From: Elusimicrobiaceae bacterium
Lineage (GTDB): Bacteria; Elusimicrobiota; Elusimicrobia; Elusimicrobiales; Elusimicrobiaceae
Reading direction: 5' to 3'
Assembly: GCA_017646765.1 (NCBI GenBank)
Contig: JAGCMD010000039.1
Location: 1-34,393, forward strand
Length of the DNA stretch: 34,393 bases
The stretch's first letter is position 1, and every line of letters starts with the position of its first letter. A program made the translations under genes and the position numbers. The notes beneath the pieces are model-generated. The model did no database searches, was not told where the DNA came from, and saw only the letters and a list, made by a program, of their open reading frames with translations. Below are positions 800-26,899 of the stretch, piece after piece.

Positions 800-2179
800 T
801 TAGCGTACGCCGTGCATCCAGCGTAAGATTTGGCGGGAAAAGGCCCACACCAAAAAGCCAAAGATCATTAAAATAGCAGCCGGTATGGCAAAGAAGACGG
901 ATAAGTTTTGCAACTTGACAGACAAGGTGGCAAAATATCCGCCCATTAAATTTCCTACGAAGGAAGAAGATAACCATACTCCCATAAATAAGGACACGAA
1001 TTTAATCGGTGCTAGTTTGGTGATCATAGATAATCCCACGGGGCTCAAGCACAGTTCCCCGCAGGTGTGGATTACATACAAGGCAATCAACCAATACATA
1101 CTGATTTGGCCTTGTGCCGGCAAGAAGGAAGAGCCGATGGCTAACACTAAAAAGCCAAAACCCGTTAAAAATACACCCATCGCAAATTTCAAGGGGATGG
1201 CGGGTTCCTTGCCCATACTACCCAGTTTGATCCACATTTTGGCAAATAGCGGAGCCAAAATTACAACGGCAATCGGGTTAATGGATTGGAACCACGAAGC
1301 TTTTACCTGCAACGTCAAACTCCCTAACCAAGCCGGCAAATGAAAGGTGGGCAGGTAAATAGACGTTTGGGCAAATTTGCTTAACGAAGAGCCCGCTTGC
1401 TCAAAGAAGGCAAAGAAGAAAACGGCGATAAAAGTGAAGGTGCAAATGGCTTTGATTTTATCCCAATCTTCCGGTGTGAGCGGTTTGTCTTCTTCGGCAG
1501 CTTCTTTGGTTTTGTGTTTGGTTACGGGATACAAGCCGATATGGCCCAAGAATCTATTTTGTTCAACCAAGTACCAAACTAAGCTGATAACCATACCGAT
1601 ACCGGCGGCCATAAAGCCCCAGCGCCATTGTACCCAAGAAGGAGAGGTGGCGGTTACTTCCCCTACGTAGCCCGTGATAAACGGAGCAAAGAAGGCACCG
1701 ATATTGATACCCATATAGAAGATGGTAAATCCGCTGTCACGGCGCGGGTCATTGGGCTCATACAATTCCCCTACAATGGTGGAAATGTTCGGTTTAAAAA
1801 AGCCGTTTCCGATAACGATTAAAGCCAATCCAATAAATAAGGCGGCCTTGGCCGGTAGGAAACCATAAGAAGCAAGGGTAAATTGACCTACTGCCATCAA
1901 AATAGCACCGATGGTAATAGAATGACGTTTGCCAATGTAGTTGTCGGCAAGCCAACCGCCGATGACCGGGGTGAAATAAACCAAGGCCGTAAACCACGCA
2001 TAGATTTTGAAAGCTACAGGATCCGTAAAGCCAATCACGGCGCTAGTCATAAAGTAGACGAGCAATGCCCGCATACCGTAGTAGTTGAAACGTTCCCACA
2101 TTTCCACCATAAAGAGCATATATAAGCCCTTGGGGTGTCCTGCTTTGGAAACGTTGTGTTTTACTTCTTCGTCTGTCAT
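800..2179 (-). CDS. Proton-dependent oligopeptide transporter (POT/PTR2 family)
   Basis: This is an inner-membrane proton-coupled symporter for di- and tripeptides (459 aa, about 12-14 hydrophobic segments). The family signature ExxERFxYYG is visible as EMWERFNYYG near residues 26-35, followed by the typical GGWLADNYIGKR loop after the second helix. The family usually has 450-500 aa, so the gene is full length. The start at 2179 is preferred because AAGGAG lies 12 nt upstream. An in-frame ATG at 2203 would add eight residues but has no ribosome site. Peptide uptake fits an amino-acid-fermenting gut lifestyle. It lies downstream of the zinc-ribbon gene on the same strand but has a possible -10 of its own just upstream. 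Confidence 0.9.
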   Translation of the reverse strand: MTDEEVKHNVSKAGHPKGLYMLFMVEMWERFNYYGMRALLVYFMTSAVIGFTDPVAFKIYAWFTALVYFTPVIGGWLADNYIGKRHSITIGAILMAVGQFTLASYGFLPAKAALFIGLALIVIGNGFFKPNISTIVGELYEPNDPRRDSGFTIFYMGINIGAFFAPFITGYVGEVTATSPSWVQWRWGFMAAGIGMVISLVWYLVEQNRFLGHIGLYPVTKHKTKEAAEEDKPLTPEDWDKIKAICTFTFIAVFFFAFFEQAGSSLSKFAQTSIYLPTFHLPAWLGSLTLQVKASWFQSINPIAVVILAPLFAKMWIKLGSMGKEPAIPLKFAMGVFLTGFGFLVLAIGSSFLPAQGQISMYWLIALYVIHTCGELCLSPVGLSMITKLAPIKFVSLFMGVWLSSSFVGNLMGGYFATLSVKLQNLSVFFAIPAAILMIFGFLVWAFSRQILRWMHGVR

Positions 2180-18027: not shown

Positions 18028-18666
18028 ATGAATAAAAATTTTATAGTTTTTGGAATTGCTGCTGTTTTGCTTGTGGGCGGAGGATTATGGTATCGTTACC
18101 AAAGTAACGCCGCCGACGAGCGTGGCGCCACGAAACTGATGCGCTCTTTTGAAGAAGAAACCGACCAGCAAAAAGTGCTGCGTTTAATTCGTCACGCCGA
18201 TAATGTGAACGAGCGGGATAAATCGGGCCGCACGGCGTTGTTTTATGCGGTGCAACACGGAGCCAACGCGGAAATGATACGCCAATTGCTGCGAATGGGC
18301 GCAGACACTTCTATTACCGATACAACCGGACAAACGGTGCTGATGGTAGCGGCGCGGTATAATCAAGGGGAAGACGTATTGGTGCAGTTATTGGTAGCCG
18401 GAACGCCGCTTAACATTACCGACCGCGACGGTTACACCGCGCTTATGTATGCGGCCCAGTATAATACGCCCGGCGTGGTAAAAAAATTAGTACGCGGCGG
18501 CGCCGACCCGGATATTACCGCGCCTGACGGTAAAAATGCGGCCAAGTTGCTCGCGGAAAATCAAAAGTTTTCCAAAGAAGAAAAAGGCGATTTTGTACAG
18601 GCTTTTAAAATATTGTCCATCATCGGTCCGCGCCCGCCTGTTTTTATGAATAATGGAGGGAAATAA
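18028..18666 (+). CDS. Ankyrin-repeat protein with N-terminal membrane anchor
   Basis: This 212-aa protein has a hydrophobic N-terminus (about residues 5-22) that is an uncleaved anchor or a signal peptide. About four ankyrin repeats follow (about 47-185), with typical phrases such as DKSGRTALFYAVQHGANAEMI, TGQTVLMVAARYN and DGYTALMYAAQYN. Ankyrin repeats bind other proteins, and this one would face the periplasm. A promoter box almost touching the ATG suggests a leaderless transcript. A second ankyrin protein lies at 25397. The partner is unknown. Confidence 0.8.
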   Translation: MNKNFIVFGIAAVLLVGGGLWYRYQSNAADERGATKLMRSFEEETDQQKVLRLIRHADNVNERDKSGRTALFYAVQHGANAEMIRQLLRMGADTSITDTTGQTVLMVAARYNQGEDVLVQLLVAGTPLNITDRDGYTALMYAAQYNTPGVVKKLVRGGADPDITAPDGKNAAKLLAENQKFSKEEKGDFVQAFKILSIIGPRPPVFMNNGGK

Positions 18667-19918: not shown

Positions 19919-20069
19919 AAGGACTTGCCTTGCGGTTCACAAGTTCGCACACAAACTCGGATATCGCTGCGCCTTTCAAGTCCTGGACGCGGGTAAAGCA
20001 GTTTGCCCGCTTGGACATAAAAATTTAGCCTATCCGTAAAGGATAGGCTAAATCTTTGCGCCCACCAGG
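19919..20069 (-). repeat. tRNA-tail composite repeat, copy A (orphan)
   Basis: Read on the minus strand it starts with CCTGGTGGGCGCA (20057-20069), the 3' end of the CAU tRNA, with no tRNA attached. H1 follows (13-bp stem, 20023-20035 with 20041-20053), then H2 (20002-20010 with 19989-19997, loop CTGC). The inverted T-arm CAGGACTTGAA comes next (about 19974-19985), then the conserved box beginning AGGCGCAGCGAT (19944-19973), ending in AAGGCAAGTCCT (19919-19930), a fresh T-arm half. The copy is about 60 bp shorter than B or E. Confidence 0.75.
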
Positions 20070-20144
20070 CGGCGAACTTGTATCTTCAGCTCCGCAGGCT
20101 GACACGCTATTCATTCTATATTCAAATTTGTTTTTTCTAGGTCC

Positions 20145-20170
20145 TTGGACCCAGGCCCGTTTGGGTCCAA
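20145..20170. other. Hairpin upstream of the orphan secreted gene
   Basis: TTGGACCCA (20145-20153) pairs perfectly with TGGGTCCAA (20162-20170) around an 8-nt loop, directly before the -35 box of the next gene. It could be an operator-like inverted repeat or a terminator. The rest of 20070-20247 shows only the promoter. Confidence 0.5.
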
Positions 20171-20177
20171 ATACCCC

Positions 20178-20205
20178 TTGTTTTTTTCTCTTTTTCCCTT
20201 ATACT
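20178..20205 (+). promoter_or_regulatory. Promoter of the orphan secreted protein
   Basis: TTGTTT (20178-20183) and TATACT (20200-20205) are separated by a 16-bp pyrimidine-rich spacer. Confidence 0.65.
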
Positions 20206-20247
20206 TACAATATCAACTCGTAAATTTAAGCTCAAGGAGGCAGTCTT

Positions 20248-21687
20248 ATGAAACGGATTATTATGATGTGTGTGTTTGCGTGTTTTATGGCGGTATCGGC
20301 GTCTGCGCAATTAGCGCCCCAAAAAATGGCCCAACAGCCACAAGAAAACGGCTTTGCCAAAGCGCAAGAGACCATGCAAAAGACCATTAAAGAGGCCTTT
20401 AAAAAGTACCCTGAAGAAGCCTTGAAACGTGCGTACGACAAAAACGGTCTCCTTAAAAAGGCCATTGAAGAGACCGTTAAAGAGACCGTTGAAGAGACTG
20501 TTGAAGAGGACCCTAAAAAAGCTTTGAGACTTGCGTACATGTACAACAACTCCAAAATGGTAGATGCAATTTTAACCAAACATCCGGAGTTGGCCAACAC
20601 TACTGTCAAGAACGGCGAAGATGTCCCTATGATGTACGCTGCGTTTGAAGATTTTGTATCTAAGGATCCTCGTTATGGAGAGATGTTCCGGGTATTTTTG
20701 AAACACAAGGTCGAATGTCCGAAGTGTATGTATAAGATTTCTGAACTCCCTGAACGCGAGGCCCTTGATTTTATGAGTTATCAAACGGTACGGCTTGAAG
20801 ATATATATGATAGATGTAAAAATTCTGCAATGACATGTGAAAAGTGGGTCGCTGCCGCGTCCAAGATAATTGTATCTGAAAAATACGTACTATATCTTAG
20901 GGCGTTGCTTTTCGTTCTTTCTGGCGTGTCCGGGAACTATATGGATAAATTTGAGTCGTCTGAATATTTGCCCACGTTTGGGAAGCGGTTATCCTTCTAT
21001 CAGGAAGTCCTCAAAGAAGGCGACGCAGAACGGTTCTTGGAAGTATTCGCATTTTACGAAGAAAAGTATAGGTATGGATTGGATAGGGTAATAAATCTCT
21101 ATCGCGAATTGCGTAAAATAAATTATAACGGGCCGTTTAAGGGGTCTTCCGTCGCCTGTCAAGAAGAAATTGACAGAAAATTGGCAAACTATGAAGAGCG
21201 GCAGCTACCCGGATTCCCAAACCGTGAAGCCAACGAGAAGACTCTAAAAGAAATCGCCGAGTTAAAACAACTGAAGAAAGTGTTGATTGAGGTGGTGGAG
21301 AAGCCACTAGCCTATGAAAAGGGGGTGGAAGGTTGGAAGAGTCTTCTAGAAGGCGATGAACAACTGGCTAAGCGGTTTTATAGCAAATTCGGGGGAATGG
21401 TTAATAACTTGAATGGCGTCAAGAAGTGGAGGTATTTCCCAAAAGGTGATCCTGACGTTTCTCCGCTGTTGGAAGGGAAAGACGTTACTATCCCGGTAGT
21501 GGTCGAGTGTATAAGAGCTCCGTACTCCTACTATAGAGAGGGAAATTACGGGCACGATGGATACGCCTGTAAAGAAGCCAATGTGTGGGATGCGCGGCCC
21601 AACGGTAGTTTGGCTAAACCTATCCTCACAATGGAAGTTGATTATAGCCGTTGGGCTAAATGGATTAATGAATATCCGCTGCCCTAA
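20248..21687 (+). CDS. Secreted protein of unknown function
   Basis: I do not recognise this 479-aa protein. It has a clear signal peptide (residues 1-20, ending SASA/QLAPQ). A charged helical region follows, with short repeats (KETVEETVEE, about 75-87). The phrase DPKKALRLAYMYNNSKMVDAILTKHPELANTTVKNG is ankyrin-like (about 88-125). Cys-containing stretches such as ECPKCM and a C-terminal part rich in Tyr and Trp complete it. It is probably exported, and the ankyrin-like section hints at protein binding. AAGGAGG lies 7 nt before the ATG, and the gene has its own promoter and strong terminator, so it is a single-gene unit. Confidence 0.75.
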   Translation: MKRIIMMCVFACFMAVSASAQLAPQKMAQQPQENGFAKAQETMQKTIKEAFKKYPEEALKRAYDKNGLLKKAIEETVKETVEETVEEDPKKALRLAYMYNNSKMVDAILTKHPELANTTVKNGEDVPMMYAAFEDFVSKDPRYGEMFRVFLKHKVECPKCMYKISELPEREALDFMSYQTVRLEDIYDRCKNSAMTCEKWVAAASKIIVSEKYVLYLRALLFVLSGVSGNYMDKFESSEYLPTFGKRLSFYQEVLKEGDAERFLEVFAFYEEKYRYGLDRVINLYRELRKINYNGPFKGSSVACQEEIDRKLANYEERQLPGFPNREANEKTLKEIAELKQLKKVLIEVVEKPLAYEKGVEGWKSLLEGDEQLAKRFYSKFGGMVNNLNGVKKWRYFPKGDPDVSPLLEGKDVTIPVVVECIRAPYSYYREGNYGHDGYACKEANVWDARPNGSLAKPILTMEVDYSRWAKWINEYPLP

Positions 21688-21705
21688 GCTAAGAAAATTC
21701 GTTTC

Positions 21706-21745
21706 AAAAACTCCTCGGGCTAATCTCCCGGGGAGTTTTTATTTT
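21706..21745 (+). terminator. Terminator of the orphan secreted gene
   Basis: A 14-bp stem (21706-21719 with 21727-21740, one T-G pair) has a 7-nt loop and ends in a T tract. Confidence 0.9.
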
Positions 21746-21867
21746 AGCGTTTACTGCACACTATAGAGGGTCCACGAAGAATATACACTTTTTCGCTTTT
21801 GCAGATACCGATGAGAAAGTATAAGAAGAAGTCATTTCCAGCCGAAGGAATGGCTTTTTTAAGGTCT
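21746..21867. other. Non-coding stretch before repeat B
   Basis: No gene or clear structure is visible. It contains short A/T-rich and GGAATGGC-type sequences that may be decayed repeat material, continuous with the T-arm remnant at 21868. Confidence 0.4.
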
Positions 21868-22075
21868 TGCGCCCACCAGGACTTGCCTTCCGGTAAAATT
21901 CCTGACGGAATTTTCCTGCAGGCCGGGCTCGCGGTTTTTGCCTTTCGCGCTACGCCTGTGCGGCTCGCACTCAAACAAAAACATCGCTGCGCCTTTCAAG
22001 TCCTGCCGCGCATAAAGCAGTTTATGCGCTGTGGACTAAATTTTAAGCCCGCACACAAGGCGCGGGCTCAAAATC
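21868..22075 (-). repeat. tRNA-tail composite repeat, copy B
   Basis: On the minus strand this 208-bp unit follows a tRNA pseudogene. H1 is AGCCCGC type (22046-22052 with 22062-22068). H2 is a perfect 9-bp stem (22008-22016 with 22021-22029) with loop CTGC in the tRNA sense. The inverted T-arm CAGGACTTGAA comes next (21994-22005), then the conserved box (21964-21993) and a GC-rich spacer. The unit ends in AAGGCAAGTCCTGGTGGGCGCA, a second tRNA 3' end (21868-21889). Confidence 0.75.
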
Positions 22076-22119
22076 TGCGCCCACCAGGACTTGAACCTGG
22101 AACCCATCGATTATGAGTC
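21997..22119 (-). repeat. 123-bp direct repeat flanking the membrane operon (left copy)
   Basis: This segment matches 24062-24184 at 120 of 123 positions. It spans the H2 and H1 hairpins and the tRNA 3' half up to the anticodon. The two copies bracket a segment of about 2 kb with three genes. Confidence 0.9.
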
Positions 22120-22143
22120 AATTACTCTCATTGTTGAGCTAAG
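22076..22143 (-). pseudogene. Decayed CAU tRNA pseudogene
   Basis: From the anticodon to the discriminator base it equals the intact tRNA at 24141-24214. The D-arm is altered (GCTC-AACAAT-GAGA, without the GG of the D-loop), and the 5' acceptor strand does not pair with the 3' strand. Its 5' edge abuts the stop codon of the neighbouring membrane protein gene. It is probably not a functional tRNA. Confidence 0.75.
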
Positions 22144-22485
22144 TTAGATCGTAAAGAAAATAATGACAATCCCGGTCTCAAAAGAAATGACATTGGCAAG
22201 TAGAGCTAGCGTCCACGGATTTATCTGTTTATACTGCAAACATCTATAAAAAATAAATCCTTCCACTAACACCACAAGGAACTCCATTACTCCAATAAGC
22301 GGCCAAGCTAAATTCGGTGTAAATACAAATAGCAGATTGGCCGCAAATACCACTGGGGGATTGGTAAGCATATTGGCATAAATTCCGGTCAAAATATCCT
22401 GTCGGGTTCGTATCCCCAACAGATACAAAATCGGTAATTCAATGAGCCATGTTAAAACGAGGGAAATCATTAAACTACACAACAT
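22144..22485 (-). CDS. Small integral membrane protein
   Basis: This 113-aa, very hydrophobic protein has about three to four membrane helices. The central loop has RTRQDILTGIYANMLTNPPVV. I do not recognise a family. The start overlaps the end of the upstream MFS-type gene by 11 bp, so the two are probably co-translated and may act together in the inner membrane. It ends directly at the tRNA pseudogene, as if a junction had been made there. The function is unknown. Confidence 0.7.
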   Translation of the reverse strand: MLCSLMISLVLTWLIELPILYLLGIRTRQDILTGIYANMLTNPPVVFAANLLFVFTPNLAWPLIGVMEFLVVLVEGFIFYRCLQYKQINPWTLALLANVISFETGIVIIFFTI

Positions 22486-23488
22486 ATTTTTCCCCTTGAT
22501 AAATAGAAGGTATCAGTAATGCTGCGGATAATATACTTAGCAAGCTAAGTCCGGGACCGGTAGCTAAAAAATTTACTCCCCAAAATGTCGGAAGCGCACC
22601 CACAAATAAGGCCGCCGTTAAAATACCGAAAGCAAGCCCTTTGTGATGTGGCATCAGATTAGCAAGCATGGTTAAGGTAAGGGGCATTGTCATATTAAAA
22701 CAAATTAGAGCAATTAAACCGGCCGCCGAATTATTAAACGCAAACAGGAAAGCTCCTGCTGCTACCAGTAGAGAAACAGCCGCCGTTGGCATAAAACCGA
22801 CTTGATCTCCTATAATACCACCCACCATTTTGCCTAACACTACCGCACTTACTGCCAAAACGGCCAATAAATAGTGGGATTTCCACGCAAAAACAGCTAA
22901 ACATCCTACATAACTTCGTAGGCATACCGTAGCGATTAATCCAAGGGCTACCAGAAATTTCCCGAAACTAATTACCGGAAAAGTCGTGGGTAAATTATCC
23001 GGTTTTCCACACACGGACCGATATATGTAGCCAAGCAACCCCACGCTAATTACTAGCAATATAGCCACGATGGCAAGATGATGAACCATACTCTTTCCAA
23101 AGAATATTCCCAATGCACCGGTGGAAACAAAAATACCTATCTGCGTCGCCCGTTTGTCACTTAGGTTAAGCACATCAATTCCGCCACCTAGGTGAAACAA
23201 GGCATTTCCTATTCCGGCAATAATACAAGTATAAAAAGGGTGTTTGGTGCACAACAAGGCCCCCAGTATTAATATACAACCGCCGGCAGCCACCAACGCG
23301 TTCTTATTAAGCTTATCGGCCATAATTCCTAATGGGATTTGCATAAAAAATGCAAAAAAATTATAACCGACAATGGCCCCCCACAACGAGGTCTGGTGCT
23401 GTTCTGCTAGCGTGGTTGCCAAAGCCATACAGGCAAAATCTACTATAAAGTGAATAATGCTGTAAATAAGAATAACTTGCTTGGGCAT
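22475..23488 (-). CDS. MFS-like membrane transporter
   Basis: This 337-aa protein has about ten to eleven hydrophobic segments. The loop after the second helix, GIMADKLNKN (about 54-63), resembles the MFS signature GxxaDrxgrk. At 337 aa it is shorter than the usual 400-aa MFS protein. The substrate cannot be told. The ribosome site is weak (AAGAG, 3 nt before ATG), and the stop of the upstream gene is only 9 bp away, so translation is probably coupled. With the genes at 22144 and 23498 it forms a three-gene membrane operon framed by repeats. Confidence 0.75.
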   Translation of the reverse strand: MPKQVILIYSIIHFIVDFACMALATTLAEQHQTSLWGAIVGYNFFAFFMQIPLGIMADKLNKNALVAAGGCILILGALLCTKHPFYTCIIAGIGNALFHLGGGIDVLNLSDKRATQIGIFVSTGALGIFFGKSMVHHLAIVAILLVISVGLLGYIYRSVCGKPDNLPTTFPVISFGKFLVALGLIATVCLRSYVGCLAVFAWKSHYLLAVLAVSAVVLGKMVGGIIGDQVGFMPTAAVSLLVAAGAFLFAFNNSAAGLIALICFNMTMPLTLTMLANLMPHHKGLAFGILTAALFVGALPTFWGVNFLATGPGLSLLSILSAALLIPSIYQGEKYVV

Positions 23489-23497
23489 ATACTCTTT

Positions 23498-23932
23498 TTA
23501 TGGAATGTTGGGCGAATTAGGTTTGCGGGTACGCCATAACAAAACAAAAGCAGCTACGGATAAGAGTAACGTAACCAGTCCGGCTAAGCCATACTGCAAA
23601 CTGCTTATTTCGGACGAATCTGCTTGGGGAGTAGAATTACTCGAAGGAGATTTAGAAGGATTTTCAGCATTCGGGTTTGGAGTTGTTTGCTTGTCTAACC
23701 GTTCCAGACATTCTAGTCTATTCCATCGCTTCTTTAAGGGAAAGATGGCAGATTCGTTTTCAATGTCAGGGAAATCCTCTTTTATTTGTTTGCACGTTTC
23801 CAATTTTTTTTCTTCGGATAACTTATCAAGACTTTCCCACCAGGGGGTTTCACCGGGGTCAATCAAATCTGCCCGGGAAATTCCGGAACAAAGAATCATT
23901 AAAAACATAGTTCCTAATACAATTTTTTTCAT
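23498..23932 (-). CDS. Secreted/membrane-anchored small protein
   Basis: This 144-aa protein has a signal peptide (residues 1-20, ending SRA/DLIDPG). A short mature domain contains two Cys (ETCKQIKEDFP and RLECLERLD) and may form one disulfide. A Pro/Ser/Asn-rich linker (about 82-104) leads to a C-terminal membrane helix (about 112-132) with a short Arg/Lys tail. The topology is that of a periplasmic domain tethered by its C-terminus. No family is recognised. GAGGAG lies 6 nt before the ATG at 23932; the upstream in-frame extension to 23995 is not supported. It is first in the repeat-framed operon. Confidence 0.75.
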   Translation of the reverse strand: MKKIVLGTMFLMILCSGISRADLIDPGETPWWESLDKLSEEKKLETCKQIKEDFPDIENESAIFPLKKRWNRLECLERLDKQTTPNPNAENPSKSPSSNSTPQADSSEISSLQYGLAGLVTLLLSVAAFVLLWRTRKPNSPNIP

Positions 23933-23985
23933 AAATTTCTCCTCACAAAAAGCAGCAAGTGAATCCCTGTTTCTTCTCACACACA

Positions 23986-23994
23986 AGTATATCA
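23986..23994 (-). promoter_or_regulatory. Extended -10 promoter of the three-gene membrane operon
   Basis: TGATATACT on the minus strand lies about 55 bp before the ATG. No clear -35 is present, which is usual for extended -10 promoters. Confidence 0.55.
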
Positions 23995-24061
23995 AAAATT
24001 TTCTGGGTTTTCACGTGCGTCCAAAAGCATATAGCGGGTTATTATAAGATAGCGATTGGTG

Positions 24062-24140
24062 CAAGTCCTGTCGCGCATAAAGCAGTTTATGCGCTGTGGA
24101 CCAAATTTTAAGCCCGCACACAAGGTGCGGGCTCAAAATC
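24062..24140 (-). repeat. tRNA-tail composite repeat, copy C
   Basis: Directly downstream of the intact CAU tRNA. H1 is AGCCCGCA (24111-24118) with TGCGGGCT (24126-24133), a likely tRNA terminator. An AAATTT box follows, then H2 (24073-24081 with 24086-24094, loop CTGC in the tRNA sense) and CAGGACTTG (24062-24070), complementary to the tRNA T-arm. Beyond this the similarity to copy B ends. 24062-24184 is the right copy of the 123-bp direct repeat. Confidence 0.75.
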
Positions 24141-24214
24141 TGCGCCCACCAGGACTTGAACCTGGAACCCATCGATTATGAGTCGATTGCTCTAACCAAT
24201 TGAGCTATAGGCGC
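24141..24214 (-). tRNA. tRNA with anticodon CAU (Met elongator or Ile2)
   Basis: A full cloverleaf is seen on the minus strand. The acceptor GCGCCTA pairs with TGGGCGC (one G-T), and the D-arm GCTC/GAGC has a GG loop. The anticodon stem ATCGA/TCGAT encloses CTCATAA, giving CAU. The T-arm is CCAGG-TTCAAGT-CCTGG and the discriminator is A. CCA is not encoded. CAU can mean elongator Met, or Ile2 modified by TilS; I cannot decide. It is not the initiator, because the first pair is G-C and the anticodon stem lacks the three G-C pairs. Confidence 0.93.
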
Positions 24215-24225
24215 GTTACACTTCT

Positions 24226-24234
24226 ATTATAACA
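24226..24234 (-). promoter_or_regulatory. Extended -10 promoter of the CAU tRNA
   Basis: TGTTATAAT on the minus strand lies 12 bp before the first tRNA base. The tRNA promoters are divergent within 86 bp. Confidence 0.6.
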
Positions 24235-24260
24235 AATTCCTAGTTTTTTCGTAGCGCAAA

Positions 24261-24289
24261 TTGTTCGCCGGGGAAAAATGTGCTAAAAT
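24261..24289 (+). promoter_or_regulatory. Promoter of tRNA-Gln
   Basis: TTGTTC (24261-24266) and TAAAAT (24284-24289) are 17 bp apart, and the -10 is extended (TGCTAAAAT). The -10 ends 11 bp before the tRNA. Confidence 0.75.
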
Positions 24290-24300
24290 ATATATGTTAA

Positions 24301-24371
24301 TCCGGGATGGTGTAATGGTAACACAGGTGCCTCTGGAGCACTAATTCTAGGTTCGAATCCTAGTCCCGGAA
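24301..24371 (+). tRNA. tRNA-Gln (anticodon CUG)
   Basis: The acceptor TCCGGGA pairs with TCCCGGA, and the D-arm is GTGT/ACAC. The anticodon stem GTGC/GCAC encloses CTCTGGA, giving CUG, which reads CAG (Gln). The T-arm is CTAGG-TTCGAAT-CCTAG. A first base of U is usual for tRNA-Gln. CCA is not encoded. It is followed by two tandem tail repeats. Confidence 0.93.
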
Positions 24372-24582
24372 AAATTTGAAAACCTGCCGTTTGGCAGGTT
24401 TTTAAATTTTAGGGACAGCAACACCAACTGCTTGGTGTTGCGTTAGGATTCGAAAGCCGGAGCCATATCCGAGTTTGAGTTCACGCGACGCGTGGACGAA
24501 AGGCGAGGATGGCGAGGCGGGGCCGCGAGCGCCGCGCGTCAGCAAGGCGACTTGTGGCCGAATCTATATTTGTAGTCCCGGA
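24372..24582 (+). repeat. tRNA-tail composite repeat, copy E
   Basis: This unit of about 211 bp follows tRNA-Gln. H1 is AAAACCTGCC-GTTT-GGCAGGTTTT (24379-24402), a good terminator. AAATTTT follows (24404-24410), then GGGAC (24412-24416), which can pair with GTCCC of the tRNA. H2 is a perfect 10-bp stem (24418-24427 with 24432-24441) with loop CTGC. TAGGATTCGAA (24444-24454) is the exact reverse complement of the tRNA T-arm at 24352-24362. The conserved box (24455-24486) and a GC-rich spacer follow, and a new tRNA-Gln 3' end (TAGTCCCGGA, 24573-24582) closes the unit. Confidence 0.75.
24379..24402 (+). terminator. Terminator of tRNA-Gln (H1 of copy E)
   Basis: A perfect 10-bp stem with a 4-nt loop, followed by TAAATTTT, ends 31 bp after the tRNA. 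Confidence 0.85.
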
Positions 24583-24774
24583 AAATTTTGGGCCTCGCAA
24601 AAGCGGGGCCTAAATTTTGTGAGAAGAAGGCAAACTGCTTTGCCTTCGTCTAGGATTCGAAGCCCGCAGCGATGTTTTTGTTTGAGTGTGCGAGAGCCGC
24701 GAAAGAAAAACCGTTCCTTGGGTTGCAAAGAGCGGCGTAGTTTATTCGCTTATAGTCCGAAGACTATCAAAGAA
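24583..24774 (+). repeat. tRNA-tail composite repeat, copy F (tandem, partly decayed)
   Basis: It starts at the tRNA-Gln 3' remnant. H1 is GGCCTCGC-AAAA-GCGGGGCC (24591-24610), then TAAATTTT (24611-24618). H2 is a 9-bp stem (24626-24634 with 24639-24647) with loop CTGC. TAGGATTCGAA follows (24651-24661), then the conserved box (24661-24693). A degenerate T-arm end (TTCG...TAGTCC, 24745-24758) may close the unit. No protein gene is supported here. Confidence 0.7.
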
Positions 24775-25335: not shown

Positions 25336-25396
25336 ACTTTCCGCCTAAATTTATATAATGAGTTGTGCGAAAATCAATAACAGGAGGCCTGTGTGT

Positions 25397-26899
25397 ATGT
25401 ATGCGGGATTTTGGAGACGTTTGGGAGCTTGGCTTGTAGATTTATTCATTTTTACAATAATATGTATGTTCTTCTCTTCGGGGGTAGAGTTTACTTTACA
25501 GTCGGATTCTGTGGGTTTTAGAGCCACCCCCTCGCCAATTATTATGCTTGTGGGGTGGTTTGTGTATTACGTTTATGCGGAGGCGTCTGCCTGGCAAGCC
25601 ACGTTAGGAAAGAGACTGTTTGGAATCAAAGTAACCGATATGCAGGGTTATCGGATTTCCGTACTTCGCTCGTTGGGACGCAATCTTTCCTTTGCGTTCT
25701 CTTCGTTGATATTTTCCATCGGATACTTGATGTGTCTGTGGACCAAACAAGAACAATGTTTACACGATATGGTAAGCGGGTGTTTAGTCGTAATGGAAGA
25801 TGTGCAACCCGGGCAGGAATTCCCTCCTACAAAATCTCTTCCGTTTACGGTTTTTTTTATTATCCTAGTAATACTGTTTTTGGGTTTATTCTTTGCTTTT
25901 TCCTGGGGTATACGATTTTTGACAGCTCAAGTTCCATCAATACCCGCTTCTTTTGAAGAAGCTGTTAGGGAAGGGAACGCAAAAAGCGTTTCCGATTACT
26001 TGCGGAGGGGGGAAGATCCGAATCAAAAAACGAAATGGGGAAATCCCGTGGTATTTCTTTACAAGACGCCCCAGGTGCTTGATTTATTGTTACAGGCAGG
26101 AGCAGATCCGAACGCACAAGATGAAAAAGGCAGTACTATCCTTACATACGCTGCCGGAAAAGCAGATCTGGAAGCGGTAGATTTACTCTTAAAAGCAGGG
26201 GCGGACGTAAAAAAGGGCAAGCCCCTTTTTGCAACTTGTAACCAGTATTTTAGCCCTGATGCATACCAGTATATGAAACCCGCGTTAATTCAAAGCGCCC
26301 GCGTTGCACAACGCTTGATACAAGCAGGCGCTGACGTCAATGCTGTTCTGGATGATTTGTTTACTCTTTTGTATTATTGTAGCTACAGTGGAAATGATGA
26401 AGTGGTAAAAGTTTTATTACAGGCAAACGCTTCATCTACTATACCAAACAAACACGGAACGCCTCCGCTTATTGCAGCGGTGGAGCAAGGGCATCCTTAC
26501 GTGGTAGCCGCATTCGTGCAAGCGCGTGCACCTCTTGACGTAACTGATAAGAAGGGAGATACAGCCCTTATAAAAGCTATTCGGGAAGGTCATACGGAAA
26601 AAATAGTAAGTATGTTACTAGAGAGCGGTGCGAATCCGAATATTGCGGGAGAGTATGGGCTTACAGCCCTTATGCATGCCGCCGGGAGGGGGCATACGGA
26701 AATAGTGCGTATGTTATTAGAAGCCGGTGCGGATCCGAAAATTACGGACATAGGTGGTCAGGACGCTCTCTATCATGCCGCATTGGGAAGGCACAGAGAT
26801 ACTATTGATTTATTGGAAAAAGTAAGACTGTCTACACGAACTCAACCGCAAGACAGTGTGGATCTTTTGCGCCAATCATACAAAGGCCGTCGTCGCTAA
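25397..26899 (+). CDS. RDD-domain membrane protein fused to ankyrin repeats
   Basis: This 500-aa protein has an N-terminal RDD-type membrane domain (about 1-130). It includes GFWRRLGAWLVDLFIF with the conserved Arg and Asp, and ATLGKRLFGIKVTD, as in that family. A further membrane helix follows (about 150-175). About seven ankyrin repeats (about 185-475) include DEKGSTILTYAAGKADLEAVDLL, KKGDTALIKAIREG and YGLTALMHAAGRGHTEIVRMLLEAGADP. It is anchored in the inner membrane; the side the repeats face is not certain. I chose the ATG at 25397 because AGGAGG lies 9 nt upstream; the in-frame ATG at 25358 has none. RDD proteins have been proposed as ion exchangers, but that is not evident here. Confidence 0.82.
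   Translation: MYAGFWRRLGAWLVDLFIFTIICMFFSSGVEFTLQSDSVGFRATPSPIIMLVGWFVYYVYAEASAWQATLGKRLFGIKVTDMQGYRISVLRSLGRNLSFAFSSLIFSIGYLMCLWTKQEQCLHDMVSGCLVVMEDVQPGQEFPPTKSLPFTVFFIILVILFLGLFFAFSWGIRFLTAQVPSIPASFEEAVREGNAKSVSDYLRRGEDPNQKTKWGNPVVFLYKTPQVLDLLLQAGADPNAQDEKGSTILTYAAGKADLEAVDLLLKAGADVKKGKPLFATCNQYFSPDAYQYMKPALIQSARVAQRLIQAGADVNAVLDDLFTLLYYCSYSGNDEVVKVLLQANASSTIPNKHGTPPLIAAVEQGHPYVVAAFVQARAPLDVTDKKGDTALIKAIREGHTEKIVSMLLESGANPNIAGEYGLTALMHAAGRGHTEIVRMLLEAGADPKITDIGGQDALYHAALGRHRDTIDLLEKVRLSTRTQPQDSVDLLRQSYKGRRR

Follow-up and report, generated by a model that had tools for sequence, protein, structure and literature searches.

A probable gene-less mobile element at the 3' ends of tRNA genes in Elusimicrobiota and Patescibacteria

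In a 34,393-nucleotide stretch of an Elusimicrobiaceae genome (GenBank assembly GCA_017646765.1, contig JAGCMD010000039.1; hereafter the window), we characterized a non-coding element of about 190 bases that lies directly 3' of tRNA genes, which we call the tRNA-end element. Our overall explanation, which we consider probable, is that this is a non-autonomous, non-coding element that is mobilized in trans, targets the T-loop and 3' end of tRNA genes, and duplicates that target both directly and in mirror image. The mobility of the element is very likely. A recombination step acting on a folded strand is a tentative proposal, about which we are rather doubtful. The fuller claim is of a new gene-less mobile class in Elusimicrobiota and Patescibacteria that targets the T-loop, rebuilds the mirror image of its host tRNA, and moves as a folded single strand helped by a core host recombinase; we hold it to be quite possible, though short of probable.

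The element has a fixed order of parts. Read in the direction of the tRNA, the T-loop and acceptor 3' strand of the tRNA (T-A) is followed by a terminator-like hairpin (H1), an inverted copy of the acceptor strand (A'), a second hairpin (H2, with loop AACTGCTT) placed at the junction of acceptor and T-stem, an inverted T-arm (T'), and a structured core of 67 to 116 nt, the start of which had been described as a box in an initial annotation of the window. Intact units are closed, 3' of the core, by a second T-A, copied directly from the tRNA 3' end. We also considered whether A' might be a direct copy of the 5' acceptor strand and rejected this for tRNA-Met: there, A' complements the 3' strand (GCCCA/GTCCAC) and does not follow the 5' strand GCGCCTA, which makes it an inverted copy and not a direct copy that has been displaced. 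Folded as single-stranded DNA, the element forms a three-way junction: A' and T' base-pair with the acceptor 3' strand and the T-arm 3' half, H1 forms the apical arm, and H2 forms the side arm. In the five copies of the window (c1 to c5), the left part folded as DNA had z-scores of -8.6, -10.5, -8.7, -5.4, and -4.9, and for each copy none of 200 shuffles was as stable. The loop of H2 can vary. At L247, a tandem array at tRNA-Asn has AACTTCTT in place of AACTGCTT, and at L140 (about 1400 to 1800, minus strand) an array at tRNA-Asp opens with a unit that keeps the layout but has a different H2 loop and core, hinting at a wider superfamily.

Evidence for mobility comes from orthologous sites with and without the element. 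A divergent tRNA-Met/tRNA-Gln pair is conserved across the genus, and its tRNA-Met site is empty in L087 and L096 and filled in L089 and L103. The filled site in L089 is exactly 193 bp longer than its empty ortholog, with a right flank that is 96% identical. At the tRNA-Gln site of L097, L099, and L107, the duplication takes in the terminator, such that H1 itself is duplicated. The direct copies begin at C56 of the T-loop and end shortly beyond the acceptor or beyond the terminator of the tRNA itself, a span that leaves the tRNA intact. They measure 18 to 35 bp in Patescibacteria and other Elusimicrobiota and 18 to 60 bp overall, and some elements have fillers of a few nucleotides at the right-copy junction. 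Empty sites and junctions together show that the element enters a tRNA end already in place and that a long stretch of this target is directly duplicated. Separately, a motif like CGAACGAAGTGAG recurs directly 3' of tRNA ends, within the duplicated stretch, in the Patescibacteria L060, L038, L050, L066, and L074.

Units also occur in series and at many different tRNAs. Head-to-tail tandem units are 193 to 213 bp long, some of them identical, and arrays end in a partial unit consisting of T-A and terminator. For 42 of 65 elements the nearest core, at up to 98% identity, lay at another tRNA in another genome, in a comparison that sampled only part of each genome's copies except in the source genome. 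Near-identical cores at different tRNAs differ in T', A', H1, and H2. Two features required of a mobile element are thus present: orthologous sites that are filled in some genomes and empty in others, with the target duplicated, and the same element at unrelated sites (29 anticodons, with shared cores). Of the roles put forward in the initial annotation, that of a non-autonomous mobile cassette is borne out by the empty orthologous sites, the target duplication, the near-identical cores at different tRNAs, and the tandem units.

To delimit the family, we searched with a pattern made of the H2 loop and a generic T-arm. This pattern matched 31 of 61 relatives, and a reversed control pattern gave no match. 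Among 84,980 species genomes it returned 51 stretches, nearly all in Elusimicrobiota and Patescibacteria; the Firmicutes matches (L036, L046, and L057) were judged to be chance, there being no tRNA and no model match in those genomes. A covariance model built from 30 sequences, with the tRNA itself left out, had 20 matches in the Elusimicrobiaceae source genome, at about 14 different tRNA genes, and matches in 59 of the 61 relatives. By this model the carriers include 58 of 150 Elusimicrobiota and 41 of 287 Patescibacteria genomes (with up to 19 copies in a genome of the latter), while none of 249 genomes of a control phylum, that of G080 (a genome recorded as Ruminococcus), matched at E ≤ 0.001. 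The initial annotation had proposed this kind of search, with carriage by most tRNA genes pointing to a trailer and scattered, variable carriage to mobility. Carriage is scattered, and presence differs between species at the same tRNA, which favors mobility over a trailer.

The initial annotation could not name an element of this architecture, and neither of the outcomes that it had listed as refuting occurred: further copies exist, and no known repeat family matched them. With Rfam 15, only tRNA scored above the gathering cutoff, and nothing credible appeared at a relaxed threshold. Phage, plasmid, and Escherichia coli records yielded no element, and an earlier pattern match on a viral contig proved to be chance. 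No published description was found in the open-access literature, subscription journals lying outside the search; on present evidence, read within that coverage, the tRNA-end element stands apart from known kinds. One array (L237, 2835 to 3319), made up of three or more units and with a tail resembling tRNA-Ser, is on a contig that IMG/VR classes as viral; host-type genes are seen in the readable part of that contig.

The link to tRNA genes is both positional and sequence specific. Among 99 model matches, 79 begin 6 to 63 nt downstream of an ARAGORN-predicted tRNA on the same strand, and most of the others are second or third tandem units, copies displaced from their tRNA, or copies at contig ends. 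The same adjacency is seen for source-genome copies found by the covariance model alone. T' agreed with its own host tRNA at 10.6 of 12 positions, compared to 8.17 when tRNAs were shuffled among elements (maximum of 8.55 in 200 shuffles). The right direct copy has decayed, matching the host tRNA at 8.06 of 10 positions, so that the maintained pairing is that of T' with the tRNA itself. Retention of this pairing while the right copy decays accords with a strand that folds on the left tRNA end.

Base pairing is conserved across the whole unit. In the model-fitted alignment, 91.5% of cells were paired and 42 of 43 pairs had changes on both sides. The covariation score was 0.566, compared to 0.174 for shuffled alignments and at most 0.073 when partners were slid; this alignment was fitted to the model, and an independent MAFFT alignment agrees. 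G-T cells outnumbered A-C cells (124 versus 55; P ≈ 3 × 10^-7, or 0.009 without one dominant pair), an excess that favors the tRNA-sense strand as the one that folds. These observations could also be expected of a functional structured RNA, either a trailer of the tRNA or a small tRNA-like RNA excised by tRNA-processing enzymes, in which A' and A would form the acceptor stem, H2 would take the place of the D-arm, and the core would fill that of the T-loop. Strong whole-unit covariation, the G-T excess on the tRNA-sense strand, the ability of A' to pair with the right-hand acceptor copy, and the match of T' to its host tRNA all speak for such an RNA. We nevertheless consider it unlikely, given that G-T pairs are few for an RNA, that the right T copy is often broken, that the unit usually follows a terminator-like hairpin, and that many orthologous tRNAs in sister species lack it. 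The plain trailer role suggested in the initial annotation is unsupported for the last two of these reasons.

The second hairpin may point to a process at the level of DNA. H2 stems diverge widely between copies, and yet 98% of their cells are paired, with only 10 G-T among 902 cells; thus, both arms of H2 change together. This pattern seems to resemble templated correction of DNA arms more than slow compensation in RNA. Template switching is known to turn imperfect inverted repeats into perfect ones, as documented for quasipalindromes (PMC7202029). If this process were sufficient, no transposition would be needed: the elements could be old, resident palindromes of tRNA tails that were perfected by quasipalindrome template switching and whose cores were exchanged, across loci and species, through homologous recombination following ordinary gene transfer. 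That H2 stems do not track cores, that H2 arms change in concert with almost no G-T intermediates, that template switching has the documented capacity to perfect such repeats (PMC7202029), and that right direct copies decay where T' does not would all follow from this account. We still regard it as rather unlikely, since it does not anticipate clean empty sites in close relatives, exact tandem units with target duplication, or a patchy set of carriers in two phyla, and since near-identical cores at different tRNAs require an entry step.

We looked for an enzyme that could mobilize the element. The Y1 HUH transposase family (PF01797) was found in none of six congeners (draft genomes that are 87 to 99% complete, including two that each carry about 20 copies or more), nor was reverse transcriptase (PF00078, RVT_1), which was likewise absent from most of the Patescibacteria carriers tested; because the genomes are drafts, these absences are not absolute. 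A bacterial retroelement resembling a short interspersed nuclear element, copied via RNA by a reverse transcriptase, would have a tRNA-like 3' end, a non-coding structured body, and target duplication, as seen here, although the missing RVT_1 in all six congeners and most tested Patescibacteria carriers makes this highly improbable, as it would call for a reverse transcriptase from outside the genome. For the same reason, derivation from a group II intron, a retron, or a diversity-generating retroelement was rejected.

Tyrosine recombinases (PF00589) were present in all 38 genomes tested, carriers and non-carriers alike. Patescibacteria genomes had one or two, mostly one, whether or not they carried the element, and one non-carrier had three. 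Instead, ordinary integrase islands that target tRNAs might have left the units as scars or might use them as attachment sites, which would account for tRNA 3' ends as direct repeats and for gene-bearing segments that displace some copies from their tRNA (a segment with an integrase at L189 and the interval between c3 and c2). We judge this to be quite improbable. Patescibacteria with up to 19 copies have no more tyrosine recombinases than non-carriers, a fixed-length unit with a conserved structured core recurs at 29 tRNA types, and no island family with an attP carrying the exact unit was found in phage or plasmid records. Where tyrosine recombinases lay near elements, inspection suggested coincidence. 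At L189 (4837 to 9500), a 370-amino-acid tyrosine recombinase and Fic-like and ATPase-like proteins lie upstream of the element-bearing 3' half of a tRNA-Val GAC; the 5' half is missing from the stretch examined, as if an island had displaced it.

Several observations weigh against our explanation. We have seen no circle, no excision, and no movement. H2 stem identity is independent of core identity, so a core moves, or is swapped, without its frame; it may be that only the core is mobile, or that recombination exchanges cores. The left H1 in L089 is unlike the original terminator, as though recombination had brought a unit into T-A, and the contrast with L097, L099, and L107 may reflect more than one route of insertion. 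No enzyme was identified among the families searched (PF01797, PF00078, and PF00589), and tyrosine recombinases do not track carriage. Finally, the sample used for tRNA adjacency was partly seeded by a pattern that contains a generic T-arm.

With these points in mind, we propose how a trans-mobilized tRNA-end element might work. The inserted part would be A'-H2-T'-core, about 130 to 155 nt, with a direct copy of the tRNA end on either side. The tRNA-sense single strand would fold so that T-A pairs with A' and T', creating a double-stranded look-alike of the target from which H2 protrudes. A recombinase supplied in trans could then recognize the hairpin and join it to a tRNA gene, following the logic of the folded attC site of integrons; serving as a recombination target, another role suggested in the initial annotation, may be one component of the mechanism. 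Template switching between inverted arms would keep A', T', and the arms of H2 perfectly complementary. The inverted copy itself might originate by copy-back synthesis from a nicked tRNA end or by correction after insertion via template switching. We know of no transposition chemistry that would copy its target both directly and in inverted orientation in such an arrangement.

The five copies in the window involve two tRNAs, as first described. On the minus strand, c3 lies 3' of tRNA-Met (CAU; 24141 to 24214; ARAGORN and Rfam RF00005). Its H1 (24104 to 24138, with the AAATTT box within the stem) was placed by sequence and folding, as were the other H1 hairpins. It is followed by A' (GTCCAC, 24096 to 24101), which pairs with tRNA-Met GTGGGC, H2 with loop AACTGCTT (24073 to 24094, by folding; model match 24062 to 24096), and a T' truncated after 9 nt (24062 to 24070, by sequence) with no core after it. 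On the plus strand, c4 lies 3' of tRNA-Gln (CUG; 24301 to 24371; ARAGORN and RF00005), with a terminator-like H1 (24374 to 24409), A' (AGGGAC, 24411 to 24416, by sequence and folding), H2 with loop AACTGCTT (24418 to 24441, by folding and the covariance model), T' (TTAGGATTCGAA, 24443 to 24454, by sequence and its match to the host tRNA), and a structured core (24455 to 24558; model match 24416 to 24567). The right copy of the tRNA-Gln T-loop and acceptor, with a short filler (24559 to 24583, by sequence), is also the left end of c5.

The remaining copies lack an intact tRNA. Copy c5 (24573 to 24760, plus strand) has a degenerate left T-arm, H1 (24584 to 24620), H2 (24626 to 24647) and T' (CTAGGATTCGAA, 24650 to 24661), both by sequence and the covariance model, and a core with a degenerate 3' part (24662 to 24760; model match 24624 to 24760). 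Copy c2 (22095 to 21869, minus strand) is flanked on the left by a pseudo-tRNA-Met with a damaged 5' part (22084 to 22141, minus strand; RF00005, 36 bits, model positions 8 to 63). It contains H1 (22040 to 22074), A' (22031 to 22036, by folding), H2 with loop AACTGCTT (22008 to 22029, by folding and the covariance model), T' (CAGGACTTGAA, 21995 to 22005, by sequence and the covariance model), the structured core or box (21886 to 21994; model match 21877 to 22031), and a right direct copy of the tRNA-Met T-arm and acceptor (21869 to 21885, by sequence). Copy c1, also of tRNA-Met type (20079 to 19919, minus strand), has a left tRNA-Met 3'-end remnant with a degenerate T-arm (20058 to 20079, by sequence), H1 (20019 to 20056), H2 (19989 to 20010, by sequence and folding), T' (CCAGGACTTGAA, 19976 to 19987, by sequence), and a partly degenerate core (19919 to 19975; model match 19919 to 20012). 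Model E-values were 9e-33 for c2 and 1.3e-29 for c4, both of which belonged to the model seed, 8e-12 for c1, 1.4e-10 for c5, and 9e-5 for c3. The common layout originally reported for all five (H1, AAATTT box, H2 with loop AACTGCTT, and inverted T-arm) therefore held in outline, except that c3 lacks the box and that the T-arm is degenerate in c1 and c5. The inverted acceptor copy A', the site at which H2 is inserted, the core beyond the start of the box, and the closing direct copy of the tRNA end did not figure in that first description.

Between two copies of the tRNA-Met end, about 2 kb of the window (22128 to 24062) holds three minus-strand genes, encoding a weak MFS-like protein and two proteins with no Pfam match, with no integrase there; it looks as if gene cargo had entered between element copies. 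Ankyrin-repeat proteins, one with an RDD domain, flank the tRNA cluster on both sides (18028 to 18666 and 25358 to 26899).

If our explanation is correct, a class of mobile DNA has gone unnoticed despite being widespread, since it is gene-less and located in tRNA flanks. It would show how an element without proteins can exploit a universal target, the T-loop, while sparing the tRNA, and would explain part of the clutter 3' of tRNA genes in Patescibacteria and gut Elusimicrobiota, whose genomes are small. It would also provide a concrete system for asking how inverted copies of a target arise.

Among known systems, integron attC sites (PMC2727003, PMC3053210) are similar in being non-coding and in conserving structure over sequence; their folded single strand recreates a double-stranded site on which a recombinase acts in trans, as we propose for the tRNA-end element. 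In contrast to attC, one arm of the tRNA-end element copies the tRNA T-arm, there is no gene cassette, carriers have no extra tyrosine recombinase, and covariation favors the tRNA-sense strand. By eye, with no scored pattern search, we saw no consistent pair of attC R boxes (RYYYAAC/GTTRRRY), and for this reason, together with the lack of an integrase association, we do not class the element as attC.

REP and REPIN sequences mobilized by RAYT (PMC2817692, PMC3116915) are likewise short, palindromic, non-coding, non-autonomous, and numerous within a genome. The tRNA-end element differs in sitting behind tRNAs rather than in extragenic space at large, and the defining Y1 enzyme was not found in the six congeners; both REPIN/RAYT and a miniature inverted-repeat transposable element (MITE) of the IS200/IS605 type were rejected on the absence of PF01797. 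MITEs in general are small, non-coding, and non-autonomous and duplicate their target, whereas the tRNA-end element has a long duplication (18 to 60 bp), no terminal inverted repeats of its own, and a conserved internal structure. Searches for PF01797, PF00078, and PF00589 revealed no parent transposase, and a classical MITE was rejected because the ends differ and the duplication, from C56 to past the acceptor or terminator, is not short.

Casposons and Cas1-type integration (PMC4046053) also insert at the 3' ends of tRNA genes, duplicate the target, and leave the tRNA intact, but casposons carry Cas1, PolB, and terminal inverted repeats (PMC4046053), while the tRNA-end element has no gene. 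Finally, tRNA-integrating islands and tycheposons share the preference for tRNA 3' ends, the direct repeats of the tRNA end, and tandem occupancy. Those systems encode an integrase and need a pre-existing shared core, whereas in the tRNA-end element the tRNA copies follow the target and are joined by an inverted copy of it.

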